Assembly: GCF_025398735.1 (NCBI RefSeq) | Contig: NZ_CP104694.1 | Span: forward strand, 1,637,001-1,701,000 | DNA: 64,000 bases | From: Tahibacter amnicola | GTDB taxonomy: Bacteria; Pseudomonadota; Gammaproteobacteria; Xanthomonadales; Rhodanobacteraceae | Reading direction: 5' to 3' | Part shown: one piece after another, positions 21,086 through 22,872 of the stretch | Numbering within the stretch: position 1 is the first letter of the stretch | How the letters are laid out: each line of letters begins with the position of its first letter | The notes under the pieces: generated by a model | Seen by the model: the letters and a program-made list of their open reading frames with translations, nothing else | Databases searched by the model: none | What the model was told of the DNA's origin: nothing | Translations under genes and position numbers: made by a program

Positions 21086-21845
21086 GGGCAACCCGTCGCG
21101 CGCCTCGGCACGCCGGAGCGTCGCATCCCTTCGGCGGATCGGGACGGCAGCGACGCCTCACCCGCGTGGCGAGCAGCCACGCCTCCGGTTGGCGGCAATT
21201 CCCGTGGGGCTTCCGCGCAGCCGGTGTCGAGCAAGTCCGGCGATCAACGCGGCTCATTCCTGCCACCCGCAGCTCGACTGAGCGGCGGTGAAGTGCGCGA
21301 CGCCGCCATCACGGTGAACTCGCACGCAACGCACCACGTTCGACGGTCGATTGATCCGTGGCGACTCCAGCCAGAGCACATTTCGTGACCTGGCGCGCAG
21401 TGCGGGCCGCCGGTGAATGCGTGCGACGATGGGTGACGGGCGCCGTGCATCGTCGATGCCGCGCCCTCGTCGGCGCCAAGCGCGCAGGATAGATGGTTGA
21501 CGAAGTGGATCGCCGACCTGAACCGTTCCGGTATCGATCCGCATGCCGGAATCGGTCATTCGTGCTTCGCACTTTTGCGCAATTCGACCTCCGGCGACCC
21601 CTTTGCGGGAAAATTCCGGCGGCTCGGCGATCCGGCGTCGAAGCGCGTCAATTTCTCCGCCGGCGACGCGCGGCACGAACACGATGCCGCGTCGCCGATT
21701 GTCGTGTGCGCGCACCTTGGCATTCGTTCTTCCGTACTTAAATGTACGCAAAGGATACTAGTGGAATCGCGAAACCCGCGCCGTTGCTAGGCTTTGGCGG
21801 GTGTCGGTGTTCTGCGGCGTAGAGAATCCGCGCGCTGCGGGGCTT
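21086..21845. other. Long gene-free stretch between gcvH and metJ
   Basis: About 760 bp. Short open frames exist on both strands (for example 21497-21790 on the plus strand) but none has a ribosome binding site, recognisable motif or convincing coding character. I see no RNA gene or repeat. It may be a decayed gene or an extended regulatory region. Confidence 0.45.
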
Positions 21846-21869
21846 ATCCGTTTAGACGGCTAAACGGCC
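21846..21869 (+). promoter_or_regulatory. Candidate MetJ operator: tandem met boxes inside a perfect palindrome
   Basis: Three contiguous octamers resemble the met box AGACGTCT: 21846-21853 (5 of 8), 21854-21861 AGACGGCT (7 of 8) and 21862-21869 (5 of 8). The central box shares its centre with the 20-bp inverted repeat CCGTTTAGACGGCTAAACGG (21848-21867; 8-bp perfect arms, ACGG core). MetJ binds tandem octamers, so autoregulation is plausible, although the site lies ~105 bp upstream of the likely -35 box. A single GACGTC core also occurs at 21933. Confidence 0.5.
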
Positions 21870-21941
21870 AAGGCGGAATGCCGAAGGTGCGTCCGGATCG
21901 GCTCGCGTCGGTGTGCCGGGCGTGTCTGATTCGACGTCGCT

Positions 21942-22002
21942 CACATGCATGTGCTTGTCGCGCATCGAAAACTTGTTGACAGTCCCACACGACAGGAATA
22001 AT
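21942..22002 (+). promoter_or_regulatory. Candidate metJ promoter with nearby palindrome
   Basis: TTGACA (21976-21981, perfect -35) and AATAAT (21997-22002, five of six -10) are 15 bp apart, slightly short of the optimum. The region is AT-rich compared with its surroundings. A perfect 12-bp palindrome CACATGCATGTG (21942-21953) sits 22 bp upstream of the -35 box. Confidence 0.5.
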
Positions 22003-22036
22003 TTTCGCGCCGTTGAAACGCGCGCGTAACGGAGAT

Positions 22037-22510
22037 ATGGCGGCAGTCAAGTACATCGTCCCGTATGTCGAACACGGGCACAAATCGGAAGCGGTTCGCA
22101 AAATCACCGTGTCCATTCCGATGCACATACTTCGCCTCCTGTCGGACGAGCGCACCCGGCGGCAGGTCGCCAATCTCCGCCACGCCACCAACAGCGATCT
22201 GCTGTGCGAAGCGTTTCTGCACGCTTTTACTGGGCAACCACTGCCAACTGACGAGGAGCTAAAACGTATGGCCATGAAGAAAGCAACCGCGAAGAAACCG
22301 GCCGCCAAGAAAGCGGCCAAGAAGACCACCGTGAAGAAGGCCGCGACGAAGAAGGTCGCCAAGGCCAAGGCCGCTCCGGCCAAGAAGGTAGCCGCCAAGA
22401 AGCCGGCCACCAAGAAGGCTGCGGCGAAGAAGGTCGCCAAGAAGGCCACCGCCAAGAAGGCGGCTCCGGCCAAGGCCACTCGCGCCAAGGCGGCCAAGGC
22501 TGCCAAGTAA
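22037..22510 (+). CDS. metJ: MetJ-type methionine repressor fused to a Lys/Ala-rich histone H1-like tail
   Basis: Protein of 157 residues. Residues 4-74 are unmistakably Met[14 protein letters not shown], the DNA-contacting ribbon RKITVSIP, then [20 protein letters not shown] and [16 protein letters not shown], nearly identical to the E. coli repressor as I recall it. E. coli MetJ ends with ~30 more residues; here that part is replaced by an 80-residue tail made almost only of Lys, Ala, Thr, Pro and Val ([15 protein letters not shown] and on), like bacterial histone H1/AlgP-type DNA compactors. The reading frame is continuous. GGAG lies only 2 nt before ATG 22037; a TTG at 22013 is an alternative. 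An internal start at 22268 could also make the tail alone. Confidence 0.85.
22253..22510 (+). CDS. Possible internal start producing the free histone H1-like tail
   Basis: GAGGAG (22253-22258) lies 9 nt before the in-frame ATG at 22268, better spaced than the signal in front of the full-length start. The product ([10 protein letters not shown]..., 81 residues, about half Lys) would look like a stand-alone histone H1-like nucleoid protein. This is an inference from the start signal and the domain junction; translation is not shown. Confidence 0.4.
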
Positions 22511-22563
22511 GCGTTACCCGCAACACGTAGTACCGCAAGAACAACGAAGCAATACCGGTTTCT

Positions 22564-22630
22564 CTCTCCCTGCGGTGCCCAGCGCAGGGAGAGCACTTCC
22601 GGATTCGGACGCCGCGACAGCGGCGTTTTT
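22564..22630 (+). terminator. Double hairpin terminator after metJ-histone gene
   Basis: CTCTCCCTGC (22564-22573) pairs with GCAGGGAGAG (22584-22593). Further on, ACGCCGC-GACA-GCGGCGT (22609-22626) is followed by a run of T's to 22630. The second is a standard intrinsic terminator. Confidence 0.82.
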
Positions 22631-22872
22631 CGTTTGTGGCATTTGAAAGGGCTGCGCCCGCGTCGTTCGTGCACTGCGACACGTCGCGGCTGTGATACGT
22701 CCTTCACATCGCGTCCCGGTCAATCCCGCCATCCTGTGATGTGCCTGGCTGGCGCATCGGCGTGATGAGACTGGCTCTGCTCTGGTCCCGCCGGTAACGT
22801 AGCGGTCGTAGTGCCGGCGGATTGCCGGCAGTCCCTCCGGCAACCCGGCTGGTCGATCCACGGAGGTGTGCC

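Follow-up and report, generated by a model that had tools for sequence, protein, structure and literature searches.

A met repressor gene of Tahibacter amnicola and its relatives very probably encodes two proteins, a MetJ with a histone H1-like tail and the tail alone

We analysed a 64,000-nt stretch (the window) from the genome of Tahibacter amnicola, which is 6.46 Mb long and assembled into a single contig, and found that a single metJ gene very probably makes two proteins, judging from the sequence comparisons described below: a SAM-responsive repressor extended by a histone H1-like tail, and the free tail, translated from an internal start codon. A sequence-only reading of the window had proposed one gene with two products, and comparative support for this proposal is strong, consisting in the conservation of the internal ATG and its Shine-Dalgarno (SD) sequence, constraint at silent sites, weak mRNA folding and joint loss of these features in one lineage. 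For the family as a whole, we put the probability that Rhodanobacteraceae metJ is a fused dual-product gene, specifying a MetJ-H1 repressor and a free DNA-binding tail from an autoregulated mRNA, at roughly three in four.

MetJ is the textbook SAM-responsive repressor, and assignment of the Tahibacter protein to this group is straightforward. The frame contains 157 translated codons with no internal stops. Its residues 5-82 match the MetJ profile PF01340 (E 2e-39, 133.9 bits, cut-off 25), and NCBIfam NF003622 yields 138.5 bits against a cut-off of 110, which places the protein within MetJ. In the alignment with E. coli MetJ (1cma; E 2.1e-33), 54 of 75 aligned residues are identical, so that the core shares 72% of its residues with a solved structure. 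Lys23, Thr25, Arg42, Glu59 and Phe65 of the E. coli protein, which we take to be its DNA- and SAM-contact residues, all have identical counterparts in Tahibacter. As a member of the MetJ family, MetJ-H1 would act as a SAM-dependent repressor. While the core is the same, the Tahibacter protein carries a Lys/Ala tail instead of the E. coli C-terminal end, just as the near-canonical MetJ with a Lys/Ala terminus described earlier from the letters of the window. The tail begins right after the ...PTDEELKR of the core and, counted from the internal Met, has 80 residues with 30 K, 32 A, a pI of 11.9 and not a single D, E, F, W, Y, C, H, Q or N. Coordinates of all features are collected in Table 1.

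Table 1. Features of the metJ region, in window coordinates.
Feature	Position	Strand	Basis
Three tandem met-box-like 8-mers, ATCCGTTT AGACGGCT AAACGGCC; putative autoregulatory operator	21846..21869	+	191 nt upstream of metJ start
Promoter-like element, TTGACA-N17-TAATTT	21976..22004	+	Conserved in 22 aligned family sequences including the window
Full-length gene, MetJ with H1-like Lys/Ala tail, 157 aa	22037..22510	+	PF01340, NF003622, 1cma alignment
MetJ core (met repressor domain), residues 5-77	22049..22267	+	PF01340, 1cma alignment
Silent-site-conserved block; putative region of internal translation initiation, within the MetJ coding sequence	22223..22270	+	Codon comparison
GAGGAG, putative SD of the internal start	22253..22258	+	Conservation, anti-SD pairing
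Putative separate H1-like tail protein, 80 aa, from internal ATG	22268..22510	+	Sequence

The end of the MetJ coding sequence is conserved at the nucleotide level well beyond the SD-ATG pair noted initially, beginning about 30 nt upstream of GAGGAG. The block reads GCT TTT ACT GGG CAA CCA CTG CCA ACT GAC GAG GAG CTA AAA CGT ATG in the window, and the near-fixed codons in 99 distinct sequences are GCT TTT ACT GGG CAA CCA CTG CCA ACT GAY GAG GAG CTR AGA CGN, and many of their wobble bases are A or T in a gene that otherwise prefers G or C at most positions. Judged against the codon usage of the 99 metJ sequences themselves, AGA is found in every sequence that encodes Arg at its block position (gene background 0.11), CCA accounts for 99% of codons at two positions, and ACT for 99%; one block position varies in amino acid (P/Q/S/T/K), and the third-base A is retained there in nearly all sequences. 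The pairwise synonymous difference (98 sequences, L152 left out) is 0.156 for the 14 block codons versus 0.512 for the 54 core codons, where the minimum for any 14-codon window is 0.404, and none of 100,000 permutations reaches the block value; since the sequences share ancestry, this is not a formal probability, and the within-gene contrast is the point. At these residues, codon choice differs among the tailless MetJ genes of the outgroups. Allowing up to 3 mismatches, a 38-nt version of the block was detected in 224 of 233 family genomes.

In the window, GAGGAG lies 9 nt upstream of an in-frame ATG (22268-22270), which is followed two codons downstream by a second in-frame ATG at 22274. Pairing with the anti-SD, computed with what we assume to be the letters of the 16S end, amounts to -7.9 kcal/mol at the internal ATG vs -5.4 at the full-length start; the initial reading had called the internal signal the better placed of the two. 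The same is seen throughout the relatives, with a mean of -8.67 kcal/mol at the internal start (range -9.2 to -7.8, n=99) vs -5.34 at the full-length start (n=98) and stronger internal pairing in 98 of 98 sequences; control windows in the core get to -6 in 10% of cases. The SD-ATG gap equals 12 nt in 91 of 101 sequences, which is longer than ideal. Scanned in 45-nt windows, the mRNA is least stably folded at the internal ATG (-4.35 kcal/mol, with -4.37 eight bases upstream), compared with -6.6 to -15.9 elsewhere (windows -200 to -24 and +24 to +96) and -6.4 at the full-length start. Synonymous recoding gave means of -8.05 for folding and -4.85 for pairing vs the real -4.35 and -8.67, and on average 7% of recodings equalled or beat the real sequence in folding and 9% in pairing. 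The effect is modest in each genome taken singly: of 99 genomes, 49 have a recoding fraction under 0.05 for openness and 36 for anti-SD pairing (0.09 and 0.14, respectively, for the window's own gene). Overall, the features looked for in a dual-product gene, namely a conserved SD and start codon, silent-site constraint and weak folding, are all found at this junction.

The pattern CCAACYGAYGAGGAGNTNARNNG-N1-4-ATGG is present in 223 of 233 family genomes and in 25 of 26 genera, with zero matches to the backward control. Six of the ten genomes without it have no MetJ (G006, G114, G128, G179, G200 and G217), G218 has a weak MetJ match, the contig of G013 ends just before the ATG, and G215 is one base off the pattern and keeps both GAGGAG and ATG, which leaves G092 as the only clear loss of GAGGAG and ATG among the 233 genomes. 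Such recurrence of the junction, with the tail in frame in all 117 complete family loci, excludes a frameshift or assembly error at 22240-22270, one of the findings that the sequence-only reading had named as refuting its proposal. Among 124 family loci extending to the junction, 123 have Met followed by Ala (119 loci) or Val (4 loci), placing a G at +4; the exception is L152, the metJ locus of G092 (genus g11).

At L152, the ATG is replaced by GTG, GAGGAG by GACGAG and AGA by AAG, and the preferred codons further upstream have mostly disappeared as well. A tree of the 171-nt core puts this locus within the family with a support of 0.80-0.83, so that the absence of the internal start reads as a loss, although deeper branches of this tree are unreliable, as family f12 is placed inside Rhodanobacteraceae. 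The disappearance of the element together with the start codon is best explained if the element served that start codon; the joint loss is that of one lineage. Since G092 retains the K/A tail without the internal start, the free form is evidently dispensable in this genome. G092 also has a separate K-rich frame of 457 aa, which cannot be claimed as compensation, because a protein of similar layout is present in G103, where the start is kept.

It may be argued that only the fusion is made, its cationic disordered tail raising the affinity of MetJ for DNA, and that the GAGGAG and uncommon-codon block slows ribosomes and thereby aids MetJ folding ahead of tail synthesis. Some regard SD-like sequences within genes as a cause of ribosome slowing, the block is located at a domain boundary, and the gene seldom uses AGA and CGA (background 0.11 and 0.10). 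Such a role, however, needs no ATG, yet Met is kept while the preceding residue varies (T, D, I) or is deleted (10 of 101 tails); the residue after Met-Ala is variable, too (T, M, I among others). Furthermore, folding is weakest exactly at the internal ATG, several of the fixed wobble choices (CTG, CAA) are the commonest codons of the gene rather than rare ones, and L152 lost the block and the ATG together though the boundary and the tail remain. Taken together, these observations make production of the fusion alone improbable.

We regard as less probable still that the conserved nucleotides constitute a regulatory RNA or DNA element, such as a small-RNA target, a protein-binding site or an internal promoter, unrelated to initiation at the ATG. 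What commends it is that some 45 nt are almost invariant, ACTGGGCA..CCA ahead of the SD among them; as this constraint over about 30 nt exceeds what openness needs, another or additional RNA- or protein-binding role of the segment is possible. What speaks against a freestanding element is that the block is found once per genome, except in five genomes with two copies, which also have two MetJ matches. No Rfam match was obtained at the junction in the six loci searched, and shuffles fold at least as well as the stretch in the window (z 0.97 and 1.10), on which grounds an RNA structure or known RNA family at this place was rejected; judged by eye, genus g25 disrupts a small GGCA/UGCC stem and other sequences an outer one, and a pattern scan of 21700-22650 found no promoter-like site. 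Other candidates were also discarded: a resemblance of the consensus to the hammerhead core (CUGAUGA...GAA) is by eye broken in Tahibacter and Dokdonella-type sequences, the runs that might support programmed frameshifting (CTR AGA, UUUU) are by eye not conserved, the spacing is by eye unfit for a sigma-54 or sigma-70 promoter in the block, for which the scan also listed none, and the +1-frame ATG of an overlapping ORF is not conserved, being present only where GAT is used.

PF01340 was found in 227 of 233 Rhodanobacteraceae genomes, 226 of them above the cut-off. The 160 loci read yielded 159 MetJ frames, the exception (L002) being a second, weak match, and 127 family loci, some of which represent one genome taken twice, have a readable junction. 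Lysine-rich tails in related MetJ proteins, for which a search had been suggested, proved to be the rule: all 117 complete family loci have the K/A tail in frame with metJ, and the remaining 10 end at a contig edge. The tail is never a separate gene in these 117 loci, contrary to what might have spoken against the proposal. An order-wide sample has MetJ in 72 of 250 genomes; 20 of these lie outside Rhodanobacteraceae (families f12, f9 and f8; L113-L125 and L141-L147), and none of the 20 has a K/A tail. In f12, MetJ terminates at or just past ...PTDEELARPE, and f9 and f8 have short ends; 12 loci from Enterobacteria and the Idiomarina group also lack the tail, bringing the outgroup count to 0 of 32. 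Thus, Rhodanobacteraceae have a K/A tail at the very point at which MetJ of another family of the order comes to its end.

We sought the possible origin of the tail outside the family. An adjacent H1 gene could be rejected as its source, as 50 consecutive residues including 12 K and 12 A were found in none of the 32 outgroup loci (flanks of about 1-3 kb). Free K/A frames were found in two genomes from other families of the same order, at L185 and L184 (MKAATTKK...). These are stand-alone H1-like frames with a composition as in metJ tails, and MetJ was not found in their genomes, G235 and G237. The N-terminus of L185 is almost the same as the one that the internal start would give in several metJ genes of the family, which suggests that a free H1-like gene may have been fused to metJ together with its own start. 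PMC4239095 places MetJ in six gamma-proteobacterial groups and in none of four Xanthomonadales genomes, proposes its origin in other gamma-proteobacterial orders and reports no sign of transfer. No paper describing a metJ-H1 fusion was found in the open-licence PMC literature.

From the internal Met, the tails of the family range from 34 to 309 residues with a median of 96 (101 distinct complete sequences). The window protein scores 19.4 bits with the HC2 profile PF07382 (cut-off 40) and 22.7 bits with hist_H1_lk_Burk NF038053 (cut-off 80), and metJ tails of the relatives G067 (54.3 bits) and G193 (44.1 bits) exceed the HC2 cut-off. As the window's tail stays below the cut-off, and tails of unrelated proteins also pass HC2, we do not file it as an HC2 member; it is H1-like by composition. 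The tail is expected to be disordered. Its composition and charge, and the analogy with AlgP and PhaF of Pseudomonas, make nonspecific binding to DNA or another polyanion its most likely activity. In this respect, AlgP and PhaF are the nearest precedent for DNA-binding K/A tails: they likewise have a disordered Lys/Ala/Pro C-terminal repeat (H1-like KPAA repeats) behind another domain, and their Lys/Ala tails are thought to bind DNA nonspecifically (PMC9239181). The remainder of those proteins, however, is not MetJ, and the passages of that paper concerned with them make no mention of an internal tail start. An HC2 search of the window's genome at E up to 10 revealed no other free H1-like gene, its matches being metJ (27.5 bits in the DNA search, cut-off 40), one spurious frame and a topoisomerase-I-like frame with a Lys-rich tail. 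Topoisomerase-I-like frames (judged by eye) with Lys/Ala-rich C-terminal tails were also observed at L161, L191, L192, L193, L196, L198 and L201, and three family genomes contain other H1-like K/A proteins (L182, L190 and L194) that share a C-terminal stretch like ISQEEAVAHIQALLEAKKERDRQ.

Control by MetJ, another element of the initial proposal, gains support from profiles and met boxes at three genes. In addition to those upstream of metJ, putative tandem met boxes precede metX (AGACGTTT AGACGTCT AAACGGCC; gene identified by NF006449, 1.7e-115) and metE (GGACGTCT ATACGTCT TAACGTCC; NF003556, 3.7e-124, the frame being cut by the end of the stretch examined); met boxes before methionine genes are a trait shared with the E. 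coli MetJ system. It should be kept in mind that a loose met-box pattern (up to 3 mismatches) gives 117 and 140 matches vs 380 and 391 for the backward control, and, the pattern being rarer than its control, it is location alone that speaks for these sites. Three other low-mismatch sites adjoin a phasin and two regulator-like frames, with no methionine genes among the frames scanned. In 64 of 97 sequences, no mononucleotide shuffle out of 30 attains the best three-box score found before metJ, which is not so in 33 of 97 relatives; the score is not above shuffles in the Luteibacter sequences L047, L050 and L060. The best three-box site falls at -165 to -193 from the metJ start in 86 of 97 sequences.

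Upstream regions were chosen from 24 loci, of which L033 and L038 were dropped as duplicates of other loci, and TTGACA with a conserved TA-containing element is found about 60-30 nt before the start in all 22 that were aligned. In the window, this promoter-like element has a -10 part that resembles TATAAT poorly, and it went unlisted in the pattern scan of 21700-22650. The met boxes lie about 100 nt upstream of the promoter-like element (21846-22004 region), which is odd for a simple promoter-blocking operator. At the other two genes, met boxes are accompanied by riboswitches. The metX upstream region (L165 1348-1524; genome C1 ~5868170-5868350) combines tandem met boxes with a SAM-I riboswitch (RF00162, 71 bits), so that two SAM-sensing layers may possibly act on one gene, and the three met boxes of metE (L178 1501-1728; C1 ~5858888-5859115) overlap the start of a cobalamin riboswitch (RF00174, 100.6 bits).

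With two products as the preferred reading, initiation at 22037 would yield MetJ-H1, a dimer with one Lys/Ala tail per subunit, which, with SAM, would repress met genes at met boxes, dimerization and repression being those of the MetJ family. The second ribosome-binding site, at the end of the MetJ coding sequence, would direct initiation at ATG 22268 and give the free 80-residue tail. Both products would come from one mRNA, probably autoregulated by MetJ via the boxes about 190 nt upstream. In the fusion, the tail might strengthen or bridge MetJ-DNA complexes, and the free tail could serve as a small nucleoid-associated protein, varying in amount with metJ transcription. A further, tentative extension is that SAM sensing is coupled to chromosome architecture, with MetJ-H1 tails bridging DNA and the level of the free tail following methionine and SAM via autoregulation; at metJ itself, the tails might bridge the approximately 100 nt between operator and promoter. 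The conserved internal start sets Rhodanobacteraceae metJ apart from E. coli MetJ. A comparable case is Cas11b, made from within a larger cas gene (PMC11899642), where one frame with a second start likewise yields a shorter protein; in metJ, by contrast, the two parts that the internal start would separate are a transcription repressor and a histone-like tail.

Nearly the whole family thus carries a MetJ rebuilt with a histone-like tail and, very probably, an internal ribosome site fixed at silent positions. G092, in which the start was lost and the tail kept, provides a natural control for the idea of two products, as do the families of the same order that have MetJ without a tail. With so clear a comparative signature of an internal start, the possibility that a metabolite-sensing regulator and a nucleoid-type protein may be made from one frame becomes testable.
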